In this document: piece by piece, positions 13,987-27,239 of the stretch
Layout: each line of letters begins with the position of its first letter
Position numbering within the stretch: position 1 is the stretch's first letter
From: Rhodobiaceae bacterium
GTDB lineage: Bacteria; Pseudomonadota; Alphaproteobacteria; RS24
Length of the DNA stretch: 38,804 nucleotides
Direction of reading: 5' to 3'
NCBI GenBank assembly: GCA_002721725.1
Contig: PBLK01000003.1
Coordinates: 29,281-68,084, forward strand
Made by a program: the position numbers and the translations under genes
Notes under the pieces: model-generated
The model's input: the letters and a program-made list of their open reading frames with translations, nothing else
The model's database searches: none
Told to the model about the DNA's origin: nothing

Positions 13987-15714
13987 GTGCTGCAAGAAAT
14001 TCTGACACGTCATATTGAATTCATCTATCCGAACGAAGACGCACAGACTATAAGTGCTGGCTTGTGTGCTGCCTTTAAACTGCCTCCCGACAGGCAAGTA
14101 AGCAATGGGGCGATACAAGGCAGAGCAATGCCATGGTCAGAGGAAGATAGCTTCCTCATTACCTATGGCGACAGTTTGATTTCCGAAGATAAGCGGCCAT
14201 TACAGAACACGCTAGCATTTATGATTGATCATCTGCAAAGCACAGTGTCCGGCGTGCATATTTTACCATTCTTCCCCTTCACTTCCGACGACGGTTTCGC
14301 TGTCAGTGATTATGAGAATGTGCGCCCCGATTTGGGGGATTGGGCAGATATTACAGCCATTGGCGAGAACTTCCGACTGATGTCTGATGTCGTCATCAAT
14401 CACGCATCTGCCAGCCATAGCTGGTTTAAACAATTTCTTAATGATGAAGCTCCCGGCCGCGATTTCATCAAAACTGCGACACCGCAAGATGAGGTCAGCT
14501 TGGTCACGCGGCCGCGGCCGACACCGCTGCTCTATGCCCATGAGACTAAAGCAGGCAACAAGCTGGTTTGGTGCACATTCGGCCCTGACCAAGTCGATCT
14601 CGATTTTTCTAATCCTGCACTCTTGCTCGAATTCACTCGCTTGCTTCGTTTTTACATTGATAAAGGGGTGCGTGTATTTCGTCTCGACGCGGTCGGCTTT
14701 TTGTGGAAACAAACGGGCACAAGCTGTCTGCATTTAGCCGAAACCCATGAAATCATCAAACTCATGCGGACACTGATTGACCATTTGGACGATAATATTT
14801 GGTTAATTACTGAGACAAATGTTCCGGCGCATGAAAATCTTGAATATTTCGGAAATGGCAATGAAGCGCATTTGATTTACAATTTTTCTCTGCCGCCGCT
14901 TTTGGTACATGCGTTACTGACCGGTCACTCAACCTATTTGCGACGCTGGATGATGGCCACTGCACCGACGCCTGAGGGGTGCACCGTATTTAATTTCTCA
15001 GCCAGTCATGACGGTATAGGGTTGCGCCCCGTCGAGGGATTGCTGCCAGAAGAAGAAATCAACCGTATGACTCAAGCAGTGCAAGGTTTTGGCGGGCGCC
15101 TAACCATGCGCAGCTACGGCGGGCGTGAGGTGCCTTATGAGATGAACACAACCCTATTCAGCGCTTTGAAGGGCACAATTGACGGCCCCGATGCGCTGCA
15201 GGTCGAGCGCTTTATCGCTTCGCAAACTATTATGATGTCAGTGGAGGGGATACCAGCATTTTACATTCAGAGCTTCCTCGCTTCGGAAAATGACGAAGCT
15301 CTGGCCGCAAAGACTGGTCAAAACCGCTCGCTCAATCGCAAGCAATGGGACGTTGACGAGGTAAACACGCGTATAGCCGATAGTGAAAGTACCTTGGCAA
15401 AGGTATTTTGCGAATTGCGGCGTCGCATAGACATTCGCAAACGGCAAAAGGCTTTTCATCCCGACGCCACACAATTCACGCTGCACATCAAATCCGGTAT
15501 GTTTGGCTTTTGGCGGCAAAGCCTTGATCGCCAACAATCGCTTTTTGTTGTTACCAATATAACCCATGAGCAAAAGCTTTTAAGTCTGCGCGACTTGAAC
15601 CTCTATGCTTCAACCGAATGGGTTGATTTGCTGACTAATACGACGATCGATCCCGAGAATGAAGAGCTGGTACTAGCGCCGTATCAGACTGTGTGGATCT
15701 CAAATCAAAATTAA
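13987..15714 (+). CDS. GH13 sucrose-phosphorylase-like enzyme, probable glucosylglycerate phosphorylase
   Basis: The 575-residue protein is a GH13 subfamily 18 type enzyme, similar in size to E. coli YcjM and sucrose phosphorylases (about 490-560). The (beta/alpha)8 barrel motifs are complete: DVVINH (134-139), FRLDAVGF with nucleophile Asp234, ITETN with acid/base Glu276, and SASHDG with Asp342. Sucrose phosphorylase, sucrose-6-phosphate phosphorylase and glucosylglycerate phosphorylase (EC 2.4.1.352) share these motifs. Context favours the last: a glycerate kinase gene lies 21 bases upstream, and a glucosyl-3-phosphoglycerate synthase gene ends in a 4-base tail-to-tail overlap. The expected reaction is glucosylglycerate + phosphate to glucose-1-phosphate + D-glycerate. 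The start is GTG at 13987 with only a weak AGG upstream; no in-frame ATG precedes it before a stop at 13963. Confidence 0.85.
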   Translation: MLQEILTRHIEFIYPNEDAQTISAGLCAAFKLPPDRQVSNGAIQGRAMPWSEEDSFLITYGDSLISEDKRPLQNTLAFMIDHLQSTVSGVHILPFFPFTSDDGFAVSDYENVRPDLGDWADITAIGENFRLMSDVVINHASASHSWFKQFLNDEAPGRDFIKTATPQDEVSLVTRPRPTPLLYAHETKAGNKLVWCTFGPDQVDLDFSNPALLLEFTRLLRFYIDKGVRVFRLDAVGFLWKQTGTSCLHLAETHEIIKLMRTLIDHLDDNIWLITETNVPAHENLEYFGNGNEAHLIYNFSLPPLLVHALLTGHSTYLRRWMMATAPTPEGCTVFNFSASHDGIGLRPVEGLLPEEEINRMTQAVQGFGGRLTMRSYGGREVPYEMNTTLFSALKGTIDGPDALQVERFIASQTIMMSVEGIPAFYIQSFLASENDEALAAKTGQNRSLNRKQWDVDEVNTRIADSESTLAKVFCELRRRIDIRKRQKAFHPDATQFTLHIKSGMFGFWRQSLDRQQSLFVVTNITHEQKLLSLRDLNLYASTEWVDLLTNTTIDPENEELVLAPYQTVWISNQN

Positions 15715-16925
15715 TTCTCGTTATCCAAGCGCACTGCTTCAGCATAACGAGCCAGAAAATCGGGCGCCGCGGCATTAACACGATTCCAGCTCGGCAAAAA
15801 TGGGGTCTCCATCGGGTTGGTCAAATAAGTCTCGCCAGCTAGCATAATATTTTTGGCAAATAATTCTACCGCCGCTTCTTCGGCATGTCTGTCTAGAGTC
15901 AGGCCATTCATCAGTGCGTCATTGTAATAGCTATCAATCCGATCAAGCGCTTCACGAAAATAAGTGGCTTTCACCGTGCGGAATTTTTCCGATGAAAAAA
16001 TTTCGCCATCAGTCGCCAGCTTTCGGAAAATCGCCTTAGAAATATCAACGCTCATGCGAGATAGGCCTCGTGTTGAATCTTCATGCGAGACCTCTTGATG
16101 CTTATGGTCATAGTTGTCAGCAATATCAACTTGCGTGATGACACGGTTAGAATAATTGCGTCGTACCTCCGACAAGACACCTATTTCCAAACCCCAGTCA
16201 GAAGGAATGCGAATATCGGCCACAACATGGCTGCGCATTGCAAATTCGCCGGCTAGCGGGTAGCGAAAACTGTCGAGAAAACGCAAATAGCTATTATCAC
16301 CGCATACTTTTCGCAAAGCCGCTAAAAGAGGCGTAATGAGTAAACGCGTGACCCGACCGCCCAACCTGTCGCCATCAATGCGGGGGTAATAGCCTTTGGA
16401 AAACACATAGGGGAAAACGGGATTGACCACCGGATAGAGCAGGCGCGCGAGCATGGAGCGGTCATAAGTTAAAATATCGCAATCATGTAGGCCGATAGCA
16501 AAGACATCGCGTGACGCCAGCATATAGCCAAAGCAATACCAAACATTACGTCCTTTTCCGAGTTCCGGCGGGGCAAGACCGAGCGCAGACAACTCTTCAT
16601 CAAGCTCTGTCAAACGCGGACCATCATGCCATAGAACGTCATGATTTTGAGGCAGGCGCGAAAAATATTCTTTGGCATGGGCGAACTGATCGGCATCGGC
16701 ACGGTCAAGACCAATAGTGATGCGATCCAGATAGGGCACTTTAGTCAATTCATTTACAATATTTTCCAGCGCCGGTCCCTCCAACTCGGAATATAGGCTC
16801 GGTAAAACCAATCCAATCGGGCGCGAACTGGCGAAATTAGCCAGCTCTGCCTCTATCTCTTCGACCGGGCGACGGGTAAGATTGTGCAGAGTTGAAACAT
16901 TGCCATTCTGAAAAAAATCGGACAT
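15711..16925 (-). CDS. gpgS: glucosyl-3-phosphoglycerate synthase
   Basis: A 404-residue GT-A glycosyltransferase of the GpgS type (GT81). It has LPSLYSE near the N-terminus (41-47), GKGRNVW (123-129), the metal-binding HDCD with DxD at 148-150, KGYYPR followed by GGRVTRLL (about 177-196) for phosphoglycerate binding, YPLAGEFA, DWGLEIGV and a later YDHKHQ with His274 as metal ligand. The enzyme transfers glucose from a nucleotide sugar to 3-phosphoglycerate, the committed step to glucosylglycerate, a compatible solute. The phosphatase gene for the next step lies 45 bases upstream on the same strand. The ribosome-binding site is poor. The stop overlaps that of the convergent phosphorylase gene. 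A mannosyl-3-phosphoglycerate synthase is less likely because the motif set is that of GpgS. Confidence 0.88.
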   Translation of the reverse strand: MSDFFQNGNVSTLHNLTRRPVEEIEAELANFASSRPIGLVLPSLYSELEGPALENIVNELTKVPYLDRITIGLDRADADQFAHAKEYFSRLPQNHDVLWHDGPRLTELDEELSALGLAPPELGKGRNVWYCFGYMLASRDVFAIGLHDCDILTYDRSMLARLLYPVVNPVFPYVFSKGYYPRIDGDRLGGRVTRLLITPLLAALRKVCGDNSYLRFLDSFRYPLAGEFAMRSHVVADIRIPSDWGLEIGVLSEVRRNYSNRVITQVDIADNYDHKHQEVSHEDSTRGLSRMSVDISKAIFRKLATDGEIFSSEKFRTVKATYFREALDRIDSYYNDALMNGLTLDRHAEEAAVELFAKNIMLAGETYLTNPMETPFLPSWNRVNAAAPDFLARYAEAVRLDNEN

Positions 16926-16970
16926 GGGAGATTGTCTTTTAAGCAGATTAAAAAATAAAGACTAACCGAA

Positions 16971-17762
16971 TTAGCCTTCAAGGAAAACCGCTATCGCGTC
17001 GCACCAACCAGCCGCTCCCTCGCGGCTTGAAAGATAAAGGCAATGGTCGTCTGGAAGCAGGCTTCGTGTGTCGAGATGAGGATTAGCTATCAAAGCGCCG
17101 CGCTTTGCAGCCAAAAGCATCCCTAAATCATTGGGGCCGTCGCCCAAAGCCCAGCTTTCCGGCTGCTCCTCAAATTGGGCCAGCATTATCTTCATCGCCG
17201 CCGCTTTGTCGCGAGGCGGTACAATATGGAAAAATCGACCGCCTTGCACTATTTGCAAATCTTTCAAGGCTAATTTCGCACCTATCATTTCTAAGCCCGC
17301 CTCATCACCATGCCATAAGAATGGCTCGGTTGCCTCCCGCATTGCTGCTCTTGCGGCAGATGTATTGTCGAGGCCGGTCAGGTCAGAAATCTCCTCGGTC
17401 TCCATATCACAAAAACATTGCATGGACGAACGCAAGTCCTCGGACAGCGTATCTAAAACCTCCCAAATGGCGACACGACTGACAGCACGGTCAATCATGC
17501 CATCAGAAAATTTTATCACTGCTCCATTTTCGGCGATCATTGCTTCCGACAGTCCTATTTCAGGCGCAATGGCCTCCAGCTCATGCAGGGTTTTGCTGCT
17601 TATCGCCACGATAGGAATGCCGTGCTTGGCCAAGGCCGCCAATGCCGGTTTGGCCGCTTCGAAAGAATAACCGTCATGGTCAAGCAGCGCGCCGTCCAAG
17701 TCGGAAAAGACTACAACGCGGTTACCCGTCAGCGCAGCAGATTGCAGATTTGCCTCAGTCAT
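16971..17762 (-). CDS. HAD-IIB phosphatase, probable glucosyl-3-phosphoglycerate phosphatase
   Basis: The 263-residue product is an MpgP/YedP-type HAD phosphatase. Motif I is FSDLDGALLDHD with Asp21 and Asp23, motif II lies in VAISSKT (52-58), AENGAVI follows, and motif IV is ALGDGPNDLG (205-214). The usual Thr after DxDG is Ala here. LQIVQGGRFFHI (169-180) is characteristic of the phosphoglycerate-sugar phosphatase group. Together with the adjacent GpgS it should convert glucosyl-3-phosphoglycerate to glucosylglycerate; members of this group often accept both mannosyl and glucosyl forms. AAGG is four bases before the ATG. Transcription probably begins in the 144-base divergent region shared with the 17907 gene. 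Confidence 0.85.
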   Translation of the reverse strand: MTEANLQSAALTGNRVVVFSDLDGALLDHDGYSFEAAKPALAALAKHGIPIVAISSKTLHELEAIAPEIGLSEAMIAENGAVIKFSDGMIDRAVSRVAIWEVLDTLSEDLRSSMQCFCDMETEEISDLTGLDNTSAARAAMREATEPFLWHGDEAGLEMIGAKLALKDLQIVQGGRFFHIVPPRDKAAAMKIMLAQFEEQPESWALGDGPNDLGMLLAAKRGALIANPHLDTRSLLPDDHCLYLSSREGAAGWCDAIAVFLEG

Positions 17763-21070: not shown

Positions 21071-22360
21071 TTACTGATCCGCAGAGGCGCGGCGGTTTTC
21101 AGCTAAGCGGCGTTCAATGGAACGAATCCAGCGAAACGCATCTTTGGCAACATCATCATCATCGCCGGCTTTGCGGAAAGCTCTGATGGCTGCGTCATAT
21201 TTTTCCAGCCGTGTGCGAGCAATGCCCAAAAGCAGCCAGTTATCCGCCTCATCATCAAGGCCTCCCTTGTTCAAGGCTTCAACAAGGGCGTTTTCCGCCA
21301 AACCCCATTTTTCTCCTTGAATATGAGACTGCGCCAATAGTACATAAAACTTGCCTTCATCAGACATTTCCGCAGCGCGGGTCAAAGGCGCGATGGCTTT
21401 ATTCCATTCACGCGCCTGCATGTAAGCCCTGGCCAGCAATTCATAGTTTTTTTCTGTTTTTTCAATACGGTTGGAGTCCATACCGGTTTGCAATATATCT
21501 GCTGCCTTAATTGGGACATCGTGATAAAGGTAAAGTTGAGCCATAGAGGATAGTTCCCTCGTGCTGACCAACATCCCTTGAATATGCATTGCCCGGCGCG
21601 CTACGAAGGCCATATCCTCTTTCTCGAAATGATAATAAATGGCGACTAATTGTTCCCAAAATGCTTTGACCCCAGGCCAAATCTGTACTGAATTTTCTAG
21701 AATCGGCAGCGCTTCGCTATAGCGTTCTTCCTGCAATAGGACTGAAAGCAAAATTCGGGTCCATTGCTGCTTAGGCTCTTCTTCTTTTGATAAAGCTTTT
21801 TTGATAGCCTGTTCAGCGGAACGCAACTCATCGAGAATCAGGTGAATTTGTGCCTTTAGAGCGAAGGGTTCGCCGCCCGGTTCTTTTTCCTGGGCAGCAA
21901 ACCATTTATCCATAAGCTCCAGAGATTTGCGCGGGCGTTCTTTTGCTAAATGCAGTTGTGCTAAGCCATAAGTTAAATCGGAGACTACACGCGGCGGCAA
22001 ATCGCCTGTCGCAATAGCTCTCTCAAAAGCGGCAATAGTGGCCTCATAATCTTCTTTGCCGGCATGAATATAGCCTGAGGTTTGGATTGCCACAGCCTTT
22101 TCATACGAATTAAATTTTTGGCCGTCTAAAATTGTTTTCAGAACCGCCATTGCTTCGTCATATTTTTCTTCTGCTAACAATTCCTGCGATCGTTCAATCA
22201 GCCTAAACGCACTTTTTCCTAAAACCTGTGAACGCCGTGTTTTCGGTTTTTTCGGCTTCTCTTTTTGTACCTCTTGCGCATGCACAAGGGACAAGCCTAA
22301 CGGTCCCCAGGTTAGTGAGAGCAAGCTGAAAATGATAATCAGAAAGGGAAGGCGCAGCAT
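21071..22360 (-). CDS. secreted TPR-repeat protein of TonB2-type operon
   Basis: From the ATG at 22358-22360 (AGGG eight bases upstream) the product has 429 residues. An earlier TTG start would overlap tonB and is less likely. It begins with a signal peptide (LPFLIIIFSLLSLTWG to VHAQ), then a basic linker KPKKPKTRRS, then TPR-like helical pairs over most of the length (for example ELLAEEKYDEAMAVLKTIL and YDAAIRAFRKAGDD). In Vibrio-type TonB2 clusters a periplasmic TPR protein is encoded last, after tonB, as here. It probably scaffolds or tunes the TonB complex in the periplasm. The gene starts 10 bases after the tonB stop. Confidence 0.85.
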   Translation of the reverse strand: MLRLPFLIIIFSLLSLTWGPLGLSLVHAQEVQKEKPKKPKTRRSQVLGKSAFRLIERSQELLAEEKYDEAMAVLKTILDGQKFNSYEKAVAIQTSGYIHAGKEDYEATIAAFERAIATGDLPPRVVSDLTYGLAQLHLAKERPRKSLELMDKWFAAQEKEPGGEPFALKAQIHLILDELRSAEQAIKKALSKEEEPKQQWTRILLSVLLQEERYSEALPILENSVQIWPGVKAFWEQLVAIYYHFEKEDMAFVARRAMHIQGMLVSTRELSSMAQLYLYHDVPIKAADILQTGMDSNRIEKTEKNYELLARAYMQAREWNKAIAPLTRAAEMSDEGKFYVLLAQSHIQGEKWGLAENALVEALNKGGLDDEADNWLLLGIARTRLEKYDAAIRAFRKAGDDDDVAKDAFRWIRSIERRLAENRRASADQ

Positions 22361-22370
22361 GATTATTTCC

Positions 22371-22982
22371 CTAGTTGGCAATATTATAGCTTACAAGCTG
22401 GCGCACGCCGACGCGAACGGTTGGTTTGCCATCTTCCACCATAGGGCGATATTTCCATTTTTTAATTGCGTTAATCGCAGAGCGATCGAAAACTCCCTTC
22501 GGATCGGCTTCAATGACCACCGGCTCAATTGCTTGGCCTAATTCATTAATTGCAAATTCCAAAAGTACCCATCCTTCGATGCCTCGGTTGAGTGCGCGAC
22601 TAGGATAGCGCGGCAAGACGCGTACAATTGCCAGCGCATCACCGTCTACCGGCGCATTCAAATTCATACCAGCAAGACCGAGACCAAAATCGGCGCTCAT
22701 AGTCGCCCTATCCATATTTGGGCGTTGCGTTGGCTGCAATTTCGGAGGCGGCGGTGGCTCTTCAGGCTGCTGCTGGCTAGGCCGTTTCAACGTGCGGTCT
22801 TTAGTGTTGACGTCTTCATCACGCTCGACCCGAACAAAGTCGATTCCAACCGTTGCCAATTCTTTTTCGATCTCATAATCGCGACCGGTAACCAGCACTT
22901 TCATAGTCAAAAACAGGGCAATTGTCGTAACGACAGCAAAAGCCCCCGAGCTTAGAAAACGCGACGCCATCATGCCGTTCAT
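22371..22982 (-). CDS. tonB: TonB2-type energy transducer
   Basis: A 203-residue TonB. It has a short N-terminal segment, one membrane helix (about 12-32), a proline-rich periplasmic spacer (68-88, EEPPPPP) and a C-terminal TonB domain (115-200) with RYPSRALNRGIEGWVLLEF and KKWKYRP. It spans the periplasm and passes proton-motive force from ExbB/ExbD to outer-membrane receptors. The spacer is short, as in TonB2 proteins, which may explain the need for TtpC-like and TPR partners. The ATG overlaps the exbD stop by 4 bases (ATGA), so translation is coupled. No TonB-dependent receptor gene is in the window. Confidence 0.92.
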   Translation of the reverse strand: MNGMMASRFLSSGAFAVVTTIALFLTMKVLVTGRDYEIEKELATVGIDFVRVERDEDVNTKDRTLKRPSQQQPEEPPPPPKLQPTQRPNMDRATMSADFGLGLAGMNLNAPVDGDALAIVRVLPRYPSRALNRGIEGWVLLEFAINELGQAIEPVVIEADPKGVFDRSAINAIKKWKYRPMVEDGKPTVRVGVRQLVSYNIAN

Positions 22983-23380
22983 TTTTCTTCCGCCGCAATA
23001 GAAATGGCTCCGACACCGGCAAGGCGTACTTGGTCCATAATTTCAACCAAAACGCCGGTTTCGGCTTTTTTATCAGCCTGTATTACCGCCCCGCCCTGGG
23101 GATTTTCAGCGTGAAGGCGTTCAACATTGGCGCGCACGGCGGCCAAATCAACTTGGCGGCGATTAATGTAAATCTCGTTATTTTCGCCAATGGCAATCAA
23201 TATGCCGACTCGGCTTTGCTTGACCGCGGTCTCGGCATCGGGGCGCGTTACGTCGAGCCCACTTTCCTTGACGAAGGTCGCCGTTACGATAAAGAAAATC
23301 AGCATAATGAAGACAATGTCGAGCATTGGCGTCATATCAATGGCGCTATCTTCTTCCTGCCTTAAACGTCGTTTCCGCAT
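22979..23380 (-). CDS. exbD: ExbD-type biopolymer transport protein
   Basis: A 133-residue ExbD/TolR with a basic cytoplasmic start, then DMTPMLDIVFIMLIFFIV (15-32). This single membrane helix bears the essential proton-path Asp (Asp21), and a compact periplasmic domain follows. It forms the proton channel with ExbB and TonB in the inner membrane. It is coupled to tonB by a 4-base overlap and starts 8 bases after the exbB stop. Confidence 0.93.
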   Translation of the reverse strand: MRKRRLRQEEDSAIDMTPMLDIVFIMLIFFIVTATFVKESGLDVTRPDAETAVKQSRVGILIAIGENNEIYINRRQVDLAAVRANVERLHAENPQGGAVIQADKKAETGVLVEIMDQVRLAGVGAISIAAEEK

Positions 23381-23388
23381 AATAAACC

Positions 23389-23943
23389 CTAATCAGCCAA
23401 TTCTAATTGGTCAGCCAAATTTTCAACCGAGCGAGCCGCCTTGCGTTCCAATCCGGAAGTAAAAAACAAGCCCGAAAGCGCCACCACCATGCCGGCCATT
23501 GTGGGCAATGTGGCTTTTGAAATGCCCGCAGCCATTGCGCGTGCATTGCCCGAGCCTGTCACAGCCATCACGTCGAAGACTTCCACCATACCGGTAACCG
23601 TGCCCAACAAGCCCAAAAAGGGGGCCAAAGCAACTAATACTTTAATGTAGGATAAATTTGCTTGGGCTTTAAGTTCGGCGTCAGAAATCATCATTTCGCG
23701 AATACGCTGCGCCATCCAACTTTTGCGCTCTTTGCGGGCCTTCCAATCGGCGATATAGCGCGCGCTCAGCTGTTTAAAATCTGATCGGAAAAAGCTGTAG
23801 CGCTCATAAATCAAAGCCCAAAGCGCCAAGGTGGACAGCATAATAACGAGCAAAACATTGCCACCCAATTCGAGGAAATCGCGGACGCCCCTTACCGCCT
23901 CGAAAGGGTTCAAAAACAAAAATAGTATGTCCCCAAAACTCAC
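23389..23943 (-). CDS. exbB: short ExbB2-type MotA/TolQ/ExbB proton channel protein
   Basis: A 184-residue protein with three membrane helices: about 27-47, 100-125 and 140-165. The second follows the family signature LVALAPFLGLLGTVTGMVEVF, and the third carries TMAGMVVALSGLF. At 170-185 residues it matches the short ExbB2 of Vibrio-type TonB2 systems rather than the about 240-residue ExbB of E. coli. It should form the pentameric core around ExbD. It lies between the TtpC-like gene (12 bases) and exbD (8 bases). Confidence 0.92.
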   Translation of the reverse strand: MSFGDILFLFLNPFEAVRGVRDFLELGGNVLLVIMLSTLALWALIYERYSFFRSDFKQLSARYIADWKARKERKSWMAQRIREMMISDAELKAQANLSYIKVLVALAPFLGLLGTVTGMVEVFDVMAVTGSGNARAMAAGISKATLPTMAGMVVALSGLFFTSGLERKAARSVENLADQLELAD

Positions 23944-23955
23944 GCAGCGGCTCCT

Positions 23956-25341
23956 CTACTTGTTTTCTGCATGGGTAGCGATTAACCCCGCCGCTTGTTC
24001 TTCCAAAATCTGCACAATCTCTCGCGAGCGTGTTGCCGCGACCGCATGAAGCAGCAAAATCGGGATTGCTACAATCAAGCCCAGAACCGTTGTTATCAGG
24101 GCTTGGCTGATGCCGCCAGCCATCAGCTTCGGGTCGCCTGTGCCAAACAAAGTAATAGCCTGGAACGTCAAAATCATACCTGTTACCGTGCCCAAAAGTC
24201 CCATAAGCGGAGCCACACCGGCCAATAGTTTCAAAAGGGAAAGGTTTCTCTCAAGCGCCGGCATTTCCTTCAAAATTGCATCATCGAGCTTCAACTCCAA
24301 TGTTTCAACATCGAGCTTTTTCTGACGGGCAGCGGAATGATAAGCGGCCCAAACTCTGCCAAGCGGCGTGTCGCCATTGGCTGAACCAGCATTCATTTGT
24401 GCCCTCACACTGCGGGCCGTCAGGGTCAAACGGGTAATACGTTCTATTGCCAAACCGACGCCGAATAGCCCCAGAATAATAATTATATAGCCCACTAGTC
24501 CACCTTGATTGATGCGCTCAAATAAAGTTGGCATTTCGAGGAAAAGGTTCAAAATTGCACCGCGTGACGGGTCAATCGGCGCAGCGACCAAATCACCGCT
24601 TTCCCCATCCAAAACATCATTGGCTGCATCGCCGAAGCGCGATGGTGGCTGACGTCCCAAATCAGCATAACGATTGTCACCGGCATAGCGCACAAATTGA
24701 CCATCCGCCAAAGCCGTGAACGGGCCAACACGCAGAATTTCAGTTTCGCGCACTGAGCCGTCCAGGTTAACTACTTCGCCGGTAAATCTTTTGACTTCGC
24801 CTTGGGCTGTCATTTCTTGTTGCAGCGCAAACCAGAGATATTCCAGTTGCTCCATTTCCGGCAGACCTTTGGTCTTGGCTAGCTCAGCCAGGGGTGCCGC
24901 GCGTCCTTTAATTTCGCCCGAGACAAAACTTTCTTCTATTTGACCCCGCGTCTCGCCAGCCACTTGCCGAACAATGCCAAACAATTCGCCGTAAACCCCC
25001 AAGCGTTCATTGAGAAGGCCCTCTAATTCAGCGAGTTTAATCTCATTATCGGCAAAAGTTTTCTCAAGCCGCTCAGAGCGCGCTTCTTCGCGCTTAATGG
25101 CATTTTGCGTTCGCGTTAGCAAAGTTTTTTGTTGATTGCGGGTTTTGCGGAACTCCGCCTCGCGGGCCGCAAATTCGCCATTATCTCGCACCCGGCCTTG
25201 GCGTACTTGTTCGAGCAATTGCTGCAAAGTAACGGCATCATTAGAAGCAGATTTTGCATCTTGGGAAAAAGCCGATCCACCCAGCGGCAGGATTAAAAGA
25301 GCCAACGCCAAGAGGGATTTACAAAACATATTTACCATCAT
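23956..25341 (-). CDS. TtpC-like large ExbB/MotA/TolQ protein
   Basis: A 461-residue protein with a signal peptide (LLALALLILPLGGSAFSQ), a long charged coiled coil (about 40-115, rich in E, R, K), a periplasmic beta-rich region, and a C-terminal MotA/TolQ/ExbB domain (about 280-450). That domain includes LAGVAPLMGLLGTVTGMI and ALITTVLGLIVAIPILLLH. This arrangement is that of TtpC, the extra ExbB-like partner required by Vibrio TonB2 systems. Two adjacent ATGs are available after AGGGG; the first is used. It follows the DUF3450 gene by 7 bases and precedes exbB. It probably links the inner-membrane motor to periplasmic partners. Confidence 0.9.
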   Translation of the reverse strand: MMVNMFCKSLLALALLILPLGGSAFSQDAKSASNDAVTLQQLLEQVRQGRVRDNGEFAAREAEFRKTRNQQKTLLTRTQNAIKREEARSERLEKTFADNEIKLAELEGLLNERLGVYGELFGIVRQVAGETRGQIEESFVSGEIKGRAAPLAELAKTKGLPEMEQLEYLWFALQQEMTAQGEVKRFTGEVVNLDGSVRETEILRVGPFTALADGQFVRYAGDNRYADLGRQPPSRFGDAANDVLDGESGDLVAAPIDPSRGAILNLFLEMPTLFERINQGGLVGYIIIILGLFGVGLAIERITRLTLTARSVRAQMNAGSANGDTPLGRVWAAYHSAARQKKLDVETLELKLDDAILKEMPALERNLSLLKLLAGVAPLMGLLGTVTGMILTFQAITLFGTGDPKLMAGGISQALITTVLGLIVAIPILLLHAVAATRSREIVQILEEQAAGLIATHAENK

Positions 25342-25348
25342 TCAACCC

Positions 25349-26104
25349 CTATTGCCCGACCGTGACCGGCACAACCACCAAGTCAGGAGCCGCTTGTTGT
25401 TTAGCTATGCGCAAGGCTTTTCGCAATTCACTATCAAAATCGCCATTTAGGTCAACGAATTGCGCTTGCGTTCGATCCCAGGCACCACTCTCTTCACCGT
25501 CCAGCGTCTGGTAGACCAGCGCGACACGGCCAATACGCAGGAACGCCACCGTACGGGCTTCGCCGTTTATATCCATTTCACCTTCATAGGCCTCAATCGT
25601 GCGGCCATATTCATTTTCAATTTCATAAGCCTCCAATATTTTGCGATATTTTTCAGCTGGATTAGCATCCGAGCGGTCCATCAGCGCTCGTAAATTAGCA
25701 ACACGAGCACGTCGCTCGTCAGACAAAAACGGCACATCCAATTTGACGAATTGCTCAAGCGCATCAATCATGCGAAACATAAGTGGCATAATCGTTCGGT
25801 CAACATTTGTAACATCTTCAATTTGTTGACGAATAGACACCATTTCTTTCTTCTGTCCGTCGATTAGCTTCTCCAACTGCCCGTTATATTCTCTCAATGC
25901 CGCCAATTGTTTCAAGGCTGCTCGATAATCGCGGGTCAATTGGTCCGTTTCATCATCAAGATCGTCAATGCGCACTTGCGAGGCGACGCCATCAGCGGTG
26001 GCCCCTTGTGAAACTTCAACAATTCCACCCAGATCCTGCGCATCACTTGATCCCACCAAAAGCGGTGCTCCTAGCAAAGCCAGAGCCCAAATAATCTTTT
26101 TCAT
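25349..26104 (-). CDS. DUF3450 family periplasmic coiled-coil protein of TonB2-type operon
   Basis: From the ATG at 26102-26104, with GAGG six bases upstream, the protein has 251 residues; a GTG at 26116 is the alternative. A signal peptide (IIWALALLGAPLLVG to SSDAQ) precedes a coiled coil (about 45-105, rich in Q, E, K, L) and a compact C-terminal domain. This is the pattern of DUF3450. In Vibrio-type TonB2 clusters a DUF3450 gene precedes ttpC, exactly as here. It is the first gene of the six-gene operon, so the promoter should lie in the 295-base region upstream. The molecular role is unknown, though it probably assists the TtpC-like protein. Confidence 0.88.
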   Translation of the reverse strand: MKKIIWALALLGAPLLVGSSDAQDLGGIVEVSQGATADGVASQVRIDDLDDETDQLTRDYRAALKQLAALREYNGQLEKLIDGQKKEMVSIRQQIEDVTNVDRTIMPLMFRMIDALEQFVKLDVPFLSDERRARVANLRALMDRSDANPAEKYRKILEAYEIENEYGRTIEAYEGEMDINGEARTVAFLRIGRVALVYQTLDGEESGAWDRTQAQFVDLNGDFDSELRKALRIAKQQAAPDLVVVPVTVGQ

Positions 26105-26399
26105 TATATCCCTCACCTAAGTGCACATACGCCGTAATAGTAATTTGTGGTTTGACAGAAACTCATTGACCCCAAGGCTTAATGAGCAGGAGATTAAAAC
26201 TATGACTGGCCTATAACAAGACGTAAACTTCGCAAAGAATGACAACGTTGTCAAACAGGACTGCTCTATTGTCCCGTCTAAAGAAACAGGAACAGACAGC
26301 AAGAAAATTGATGATTGCGCGGCCATGCCCTAATCGGGCTTTGCAAATTATCCGGGGAAACCATAGTCTCAGAAGCTAAGAACATATTGGGTCCAAAGA
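26105..26399. other. divergent intergenic region, TonB2 operon / SMP-30 gene
   Basis: This 295-base region separates the first gene of the TonB operon from the SMP-30 gene. The only strong structure seen is the 14-bp palindrome at 26240-26253. TTGACA-like hexamers occur on both strands (one overlaps the palindrome on the minus strand), but no convincing -10 partner at 16-18 bases was found. Short frames inside it have no recognisable product. Confidence 0.6.
26240..26253. promoter_or_regulatory. LacI-family-like operator palindrome
   Basis: TGACAACGTTGTCA is a perfect 14-bp palindrome with the central CG and flanking TG...CA typical of LacI/GalR-family operators. It lies 136 bases upstream of the DUF3450 ATG and 146 bases upstream of the SMP-30 start. 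On the minus strand a TTGACA hexamer overlaps one half, so binding could block a promoter. No LacI-type gene is in the window. Confidence 0.55.
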
Positions 26400-27239
26400 T
26401 TGGCAACCACATTTGAAATAATTGCAAGCGGCTATGGGTTGGCAGAAGGGCCACGCTATGACAGCGAAAACGGCACGTATTTTTGCGACTCTCTAAATGG
26501 CGGTGTCTTTCGGCGCAACGCGCAGGGCGAAATTGAGACAATCATCCCCAAACGCAGAGGGGTCGGTGGCATTGCGCTGCATTCGGATGGCGGCATTGTC
26601 GTATCAGGGCGCAACATTTGTCATGTAAAACATGGGGTCTCGCGTGTATTGTTTGAGCTGGAGGCTGGGTCCCGATTTAACGATATTGGCACAGATCCAA
26701 ACGGTCGCCTCTATGTCGGCACATTGCGCTTTGACCCATTTAACCCCGAGGCCCTGCCAACTCCAGGCGAGTTATACCGCGTCGATAGTGAGGGTGAGGC
26801 AACACAACTATATGATGATGTCGGCCTTACCAATGGCATCGGATTTTCGCCCGACGGGGAGACCATTTATCATAGCGACAGTTTGCGGCGACATATTATT
26901 GCTCACCGGATAAAAGACGATGGCAGTTGTATTGAACGCCATATATTTGCCCAACTACCCCAAGGTACGCCGGACGGTCTGTGTGTTGACGCCGATGGCG
27001 GCGTTTGGGTGGCAGCCTATGGGGCTGGCTCAATTTTGCGGCTTAGCCCTGGGGGCAAACTAGATCAAAAAATAGAACTGCCAGCCAAAAAAATAACCAG
27101 CCTGTGCTTTGGCGAGAAAGATTTGCGCACACTCTATGTGACTTCAGCGGACAATAAAGAGGATAAAAGCCTTGGCGGCTGCTTATTCAGCTTGCGACTT
27201 GGCATTGCAGGCCTTCCCCATGTCAAAGTGCAAATCTGA
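26400..27239 (+). CDS. SMP-30/gluconolactonase family protein
   Basis: A 279-residue six-bladed propeller lactonase of the SMP-30 family. Predicted metal ligands are Glu16 (LAEGPRYD), Asn94 (RFNDIG), Asn145 (LTNGIGFSPDG) and Asp192 (TPDGLCVDADGGVW). Its start is uncertain. The only in-frame start before the conserved LAEGPR segment is TTG at 26400, with a weak ribosome-binding site, and a stop lies upstream at 26364. The family hydrolyses sugar lactones such as gluconolactone, and a LacI-type palindrome 146 bases upstream would fit sugar control. It converges on the SDR gene with 10 bases between stops. Confidence 0.85.
   Translation: MATTFEIIASGYGLAEGPRYDSENGTYFCDSLNGGVFRRNAQGEIETIIPKRRGVGGIALHSDGGIVVSGRNICHVKHGVSRVLFELEAGSRFNDIGTDPNGRLYVGTLRFDPFNPEALPTPGELYRVDSEGEATQLYDDVGLTNGIGFSPDGETIYHSDSLRRHIIAHRIKDDGSCIERHIFAQLPQGTPDGLCVDADGGVWVAAYGAGSILRLSPGGKLDQKIELPAKKITSLCFGEKDLRTLYVTSADNKEDKSLGGCLFSLRLGIAGLPHVKVQI

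Follow-up and report, generated by a model that had tools for sequence, protein, structure and literature searches.

Predicted LacI-family regulators provide the closest described parallels to the locus reported here. In Caulobacter, GluR (CC2053) is a LacI-family protein predicted to regulate zwf-pgl-edd-glk, with glucose as the proposed effector, and the available text of that study reports no GluR orthologs in other Alphaproteobacteria (PMC4052901). In Shewanella, a TonB-dependent transporter belongs to the BglR regulon, as does a glucose permease (PMC2996990). At the sux locus of Xanthomonas campestris, SuxR, a regulator of the LacI/GalR type, occurs together with a TonB-dependent receptor for a sugar, much as is seen here; the dependence of uptake on TonB-ExbBD is left undecided there, and the available part of the paper describes no exb regulator (PMC1790865). 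TonB genes themselves are usually described as iron-regulated (PMC10734418). The TonB2 operon of Vibrio vulnificus, which begins with ttpB2, is induced by iron limitation and carries a potential Fur site (PMC6957404). The Teredinibacter turnerae exception is called unusual and explained by sugar use: a TonB2-type cluster there serves growth on carboxymethyl cellulose, a beta-glucan, redundantly with tonB1b, it is not clearly under iron control, and in the available text LacI appears only as a cloning vector, with no sugar regulator of the cluster (PMC10734418). Among the titles and abstracts found in the literature that we searched, which covered few subscription journals, there was no report of LacI control of exbB or tonB operons.

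The window, by which we mean the whole stretch of 38,804 nucleotides analysed (G000:C2:29281-68084), comes from a Rhodobiaceae genome, G000, assembled as 1.7 Mb in 26 contigs and 90% complete. Its relevant features are as follows.

21071..22381, minus strand: TtpD-like TPR protein, final gene of the operon (TPR models)
22371..22982, minus strand: TonB2 (PF03544, TonB_C, 3.6e-16), the sole PF03544 match in G000
22979..23380, minus strand: ExbD2 (PF02472, 2.3e-32)
23389..23943, minus strand: ExbB2 (PF01618, 7.8e-23)
23956..25341, minus strand: TtpC-like protein with a MotA/TolQ/ExbB domain (PF01618, 2.4e-30)
25349..26104, minus strand: TtpB-like protein (DUF3450; PF11932, 6.3e-86), first gene of the operon
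26105..26239, minus strand: leader from operator to TtpB start, partly conserved in the related genome G003 (blocks TAGGCCAG, CATAGTTTTA and TAGGTGAGGGA)
26240..26253, minus strand: putative LacI-type operator TGACAACGTTGTCA, which with the T before it (TonB2 direction) contains a -35-like TTGACA
26400..27239, plus strand: SMP-30/gluconolactonase-like gene (PF08450, 2.3e-59)

The operon has the gene order of a TtpC-type TonB2 system (DUF3450, long MotA/ExbB, ExbB, ExbD, TonB, TPR), and its six-gene order and domain types are identical to those of TtpB-TtpC-ExbB2-ExbD2-TonB2-TtpD in V. vulnificus (PMC6957404); like the T. turnerae cluster, it is TonB2-type (PMC10734418). In place of the potential Fur site of Vibrio stands a LacI-type palindrome, and the best Fur-like match in the promoter (11/19) stayed within the range of mononucleotide shuffles, comparison of one 300-bp promoter with a consensus being a weak test. 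Elsewhere in the window (13987-17762), adjoining genes whose translations read as a sucrose-phosphorylase-like enzyme, a glycosyltransferase and a HAD-type phosphatase are possibly concerned with glucosyl- or mannosylglycerate.

The original prediction placed a perfect 14-bp palindrome of LacI/GalR operator form between the TonB2 operon and the SMP-30 lactonase gene, and both its sequence and its placement hold: TGACAACGTTGTCA matches exactly at 26240-26253, with the TtpB ATG (ending at 26104, minus strand) 135 bp downstream on one side and the SMP-30 TTG start (26400, plus strand) 146 bp away on the other. Perfect 14-bp palindromy is by itself unremarkable, since the window contains seven such palindromes; it is the word that is remarkable. 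Under Markov models of orders 1-3, for which about 71 kb of G000 served as training sequence, 0.004-0.005 exact copies of TGACAACGTTGTCA are expected per genome and three are observed, far above the chance frequency that would have spoken against an operator, while the broader pattern TGACANCGNTGTCA, which takes in two further variants, is found five times against 0.06-0.20 expected. As a control, reversed TGACANCGNTGTCA gave no match in any of the 28 family genomes. The reversed 14-mer with two mismatches permitted gave four matches in G000, so copies with two mismatches cannot count as evidence if they lack the central CG, and those at C5:4348 and C21:30101, no better than this control, were dropped. 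A likeness of the palindrome to the NagR motif of Shewanella gave no more than a lead, and a NagR-type identity was rejected: NagR is described as an N-acetylglucosamine regulator (PMC3223726), and the genes here are those of glucan use and the Entner-Doudoroff pathway. LacI-family operators are defined as even palindromes with a central CG (PMC4052901), and TGACAACGTTGTCA has both properties; a full-text literature search found no paper with the 14-mer.

The other four copies in G000, two exact and two variant, all lie on contig C25 around a LacI-family gene and sugar genes, which supports the LacI-operator reading.

C25: site flanked by genes for a TonB-dependent receptor and a GH3 enzyme
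C25: site between the LacI-family gene and zwf-pgl-edd-glk
C25: site upstream of a sodium/solute symporter and GH16
C25, L008:13391-13404 (G000:C25:43390): site between a GH16 gene and the gene preceding type I secretion-like genes

The LacI-family gene (G000:C25:53929-54942) encodes LacI (PF00356) and Peripla_BP_3 (PF13377) domains, has CcpA-type and PurR repressors as its nearest solved structures and scores above the cut-off of none of the NCBIfam models. As would be expected of a cognate regulator, the GH3-LacI gene pair is flanked by sites on both sides. Best solved-structure matches at this locus include a laminarinase (3iln, 5.4e-48), an exo-1,3/1,4-beta-glucanase (3usz, 8.2e-200) and a sodium/glucose cotransporter (2xq2, 2.7e-160), and the receptor scores above the cut-off for the TonB-Xanth-Caul subfamily. 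The C25 genes thus have the look of a locus for laminarin-type beta-glucan use and the Entner-Doudoroff pathway, equipped with a LacI regulator of its own (the names zwf, pgl, edd, glk, HlyD and TolC were assigned by reading translations); a literature search on the PS1 clade and laminarin gave no paper. About 430 bp downstream of the L008 site is a gene for a protein without a Pfam match (L008:11248-12960), followed by TolC-like, ABC and HlyD-like genes, a secretion cluster that may be glucan-controlled.

With Caulobacter GluR this putative system shares a LacI-family protein, a regulator gene adjoining zwf-pgl-edd-glk, an even palindrome and central carbon targets, but gluR lies directly downstream of that operon (PMC4052901), whereas the regulator here lies upstream of zwf, behind GH3, and sites occur additionally at TonB-dependent receptor (TBDR)/GH3, sodium symporter (SSS), gapA and TonB2 genes. 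BglR1-3 of the Caulobacterales (PMC4052901) and BglR of Shewanella (PMC2996990) are, as here, LacI-family regulators of beta-glucoside genes; exbB is absent from the main texts of both studies, as available, whereas here a TonB energiser bears the operator. Caulobacter relatives of the C25 regulator are 33-41% identical to it, and three Caulobacter loci carry GACAACGTTGTC palindromes. The regulator resembles the predicted GluR/BglR repressors, and what appears new is its proposed extra target, the operon with the sole TonB detected in G000.

All 28 family genomes (PS1-clade Alphaproteobacteria) were searched; since they are mutually related and several are incomplete, the counts are not independent events. 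The pattern occurs at 24 sites in 11 genomes and is absent from the other 17. Nine sites lie at the zwf operon, five at GH3/TBDR, four at SSS genes, three at gapA, two at TonB2 and one at a secretion-like gene; 21 precede glucan or sugar-catabolism genes, and the nine zwf and five GH3/TBDR sites are those expected of a GluR/BglR regulon. The GH3 of the locus was found in 9/28 genomes and zwf in 10/28 (E<=1e-50), and the genomes with either are exactly the 11 with the pattern; the remaining 17 have neither at that threshold. A full-length regulator ortholog (at least 47% identical to that of G000) is present in eight genomes, with a fragment at a contig end in G002, while two of the 17 siteless genomes, G015 and G020, gave distant LacI-family matches (25-28% identity) and the others none. 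No regulator ortholog was found in G001 and G023, which have the pattern; contig breaks can explain this, as the site is 156 bases from the start of its contig in G001, and in G023 the contig is cut off within edd. In G013, G017 and G023 (L086, L089, L090) a copy of this operator separates eda from gapA, which brings lower glycolysis into the regulon.

From these comparisons we think it probable that the window palindrome is an operator of the C25 repressor and that it joins the TonB2 operon to the beta-glucan/Entner-Doudoroff regulon. The LacI-family repressor would control laminarin-type beta-glucan uptake together with the Entner-Doudoroff genes. With the sugar signal absent it would sit on TGACANCGNTGTCA, cover the TTGACA -35 element and block transcription; on binding glucose or a beta-glucoside it would leave, opening the target promoters. 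In G000 and G003, where the operator also stands on the six-gene TonB2 operon, more TonB-ExbBD motor would then be made when glucan is present, and would power the glucan TonB-dependent receptor. Binding, repression, the identity of the effector and the partial nature of the repression are all things that we infer, the last because TonB is presumably needed by other receptors too. Against the model, repressing a sole TonB would threaten other TonB-dependent uptake.

The orientation of the sites is consistent with occlusion of a -35 element. In 21 of the 24, both TonB2 sites among them, a T precedes TGACA in the direction of the target, against 1/24 on the opposite strand, which suggests that most operators include a -35-like TTGACA belonging to the promoter of their target. 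On average the best -10 hexamer scores 3.5/6 toward the target and 2.9 in the opposite direction; individually, the one after TTGACA scores 4/6 in G003 and 2/6 in the window, where a sigma-70 scan of 26080-26430 found no promoter. A TonB2 promoter at the window site is hence a candidate only and not proven. The lack of a convincing -10, the 135 bp between site and start codon and the conserved blocks between the site and the TtpB gene would also suit a protein that activates TonB2 from the site, with the promoter further downstream; the embedding of TTGACA toward the target fits -35 occlusion better, and we regard activation as unlikely.

It is similarly improbable that the same repressor acts here on SMP-30, or on both genes, as it might if, for example, a gluconolactonase fed glucose oxidation. 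The gene name gnl denotes a gluconolactonase. In Caulobacter, gnl-gfo is part of the predicted GluR regulon (PMC4052901); the SMP-30 gene of the window begins close by on the other side of the site, and the solved structures that best match its protein are those of an SMP-30 family member and of regucalcin, gluconolactonase matching less well. Against this, the TTGACA half in the window is directed at TonB2 and not SMP-30, and an SMP-30 gene adjoins none of the other 23 sites. In G003, moreover, the site is at TonB2, an Ig-like/cadherin-like protein gene adjoins the operon in place of SMP-30, and the SMP-30 ortholog (80% identical) lies on another contig with no motif within three mismatches in its 2.6-kb locus; in G007 (92% complete), SMP-30 stands beside the TonB2 operon without a site, and regulator, GH3 and zwf were all not found. 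These arrangements suggest that the site travels with TonB2 and the regulator and is independent of SMP-30. SMP-30 is thus probably not a target, the proposed sugar-lactonase link lacks support, and the sugar concerned is probably beta-glucan or glucose in preference to a sugar lactone.

The other link originally proposed, between sugar and TonB, fares better: the putative operator of a sugar locus also stands at TonB2, and is retained there in the sister species G003. Comparison of orthologous operons gives a divided answer, as 18 of the 20 family TonB2 promoters have no site (G000 and G003 being the two that do), including those of G002, G008, G013, G016, G017, G019 and G022, in which the regulator or its fragment is present. 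G009 and G015, with partial TtpB at contig ends, were excluded from the 20 but scanned as well, with no match within three mismatches. The G000 and G003 promoters align with 205 identities in 275 columns, and the longest exact run, the 16-bp TTGACAACGTTGTCAT, contains the operator. G000 and G003 are closely related, so this conservation may partly reflect short divergence; a TtpB tree of 20 rows neither supported nor rejected a clade of the two. Least probable of all is a chance palindrome beside TonB2 with a G003 copy left by short divergence and C25 as the whole regulon: the seven palindromes of the window and the 18 siteless promoters would allow it, but the rarity of exact copies, the position of the longest run and an orientation that agrees with the other sites do not favour it.

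A tie between TonB2 and the glucan locus has mild separate support from synteny. In 3/12 genomes with a visible downstream region (G001, G016 and G019), the TonB2 operon and a phosphoenolpyruvate carboxylase-like gene converge, standing tail to tail. In G001 (C58, L091) the latter gene ends a zwf-pgl-edd-glk-eda run, with the TonB2 operon adjoining on the same contig; in G016 its link to zwf spans more than one contig, in G019 the TonB2/PEP carboxylase-like and zwf halves are at the ends of two separate, unjoined contigs, and on C25 of G000 a similar gene comes after glk, distant from TonB2. The G001 assembly may be contaminated by a G022-like genome, contig C58 included, since its TtpB groups with that of G022 and it is rated 5% contaminated.

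Outside the family, the pattern was found in 6/33 genomes of the class (eight sites) and the reversed control in 2/33, so the pattern alone is insufficient proof of a beta-glucan regulon. Among the best 80 loci of a genome scan with the regulator alignment, four belong to clade members, and the pattern is present in 22 of the other 76 (27 sites, against none for the reversed control). These 80 include the gammaproteobacterial loci L103, L108, L112 and L121, with the pattern beside GH3, TBDR or GH16, and many Caulobacterales loci with TGACACCGGTGTCA shortly upstream of receptors; no TonB2-operon gene scored above 60 bits at the regulator loci, a threshold that could miss distant short proteins. 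DUF3450 exceeded its cut-off in 24/385 class genomes, 19 of them non-family, and the promoters of these 19 lack the motif within two mismatches (only 132 bp being visible in L191); the L188 promoter has a different CG-centred perfect palindrome. The operator class thus appears known in kind, as in BglR and GluR (PMC4052901), and widespread, while TonB2 as its target looks local. We consider the window site likely to be a real operator; the regulon is of a kind already known, and TonB2 would be an unusual addition to its targets.

How far such control would reach depends on the number of TonB proteins. PF03544 has exactly one match in 23/28 family genomes, G000 included, and none in G006, G012, G022, G025 and G026 (74-85% complete); G000, whose assembly is 90% complete, could possibly hold a further TonB, for example a divergent one missed by the model. 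Its four PF02472 matches are ExbD2, one in a Tol-Pal-like gene group and two beside genes for ExbB-like and vWA-like proteins (names again from reading translations). The last group (L232, G000:C7 near 226000), with an ExbB-like protein, two ExbD and a vWA-like protein, is a second proton-channel cluster, and the one TonB_C match of G000 is elsewhere. If a single TonB were under a sugar repressor, transport by all TonB-dependent receptors (five barrels in G000) could track glucan, so that the uptake of iron and vitamins would be coupled to carbon catabolism; we regard this as possible but rather doubtful. If the proposed link is true, the uptake motor would itself be part of a polysaccharide regulon, a concrete case in a small-genome marine eater of glucan, an algal-type sugar, and the control of TonB supply in sugar specialists would become a directly testable question.
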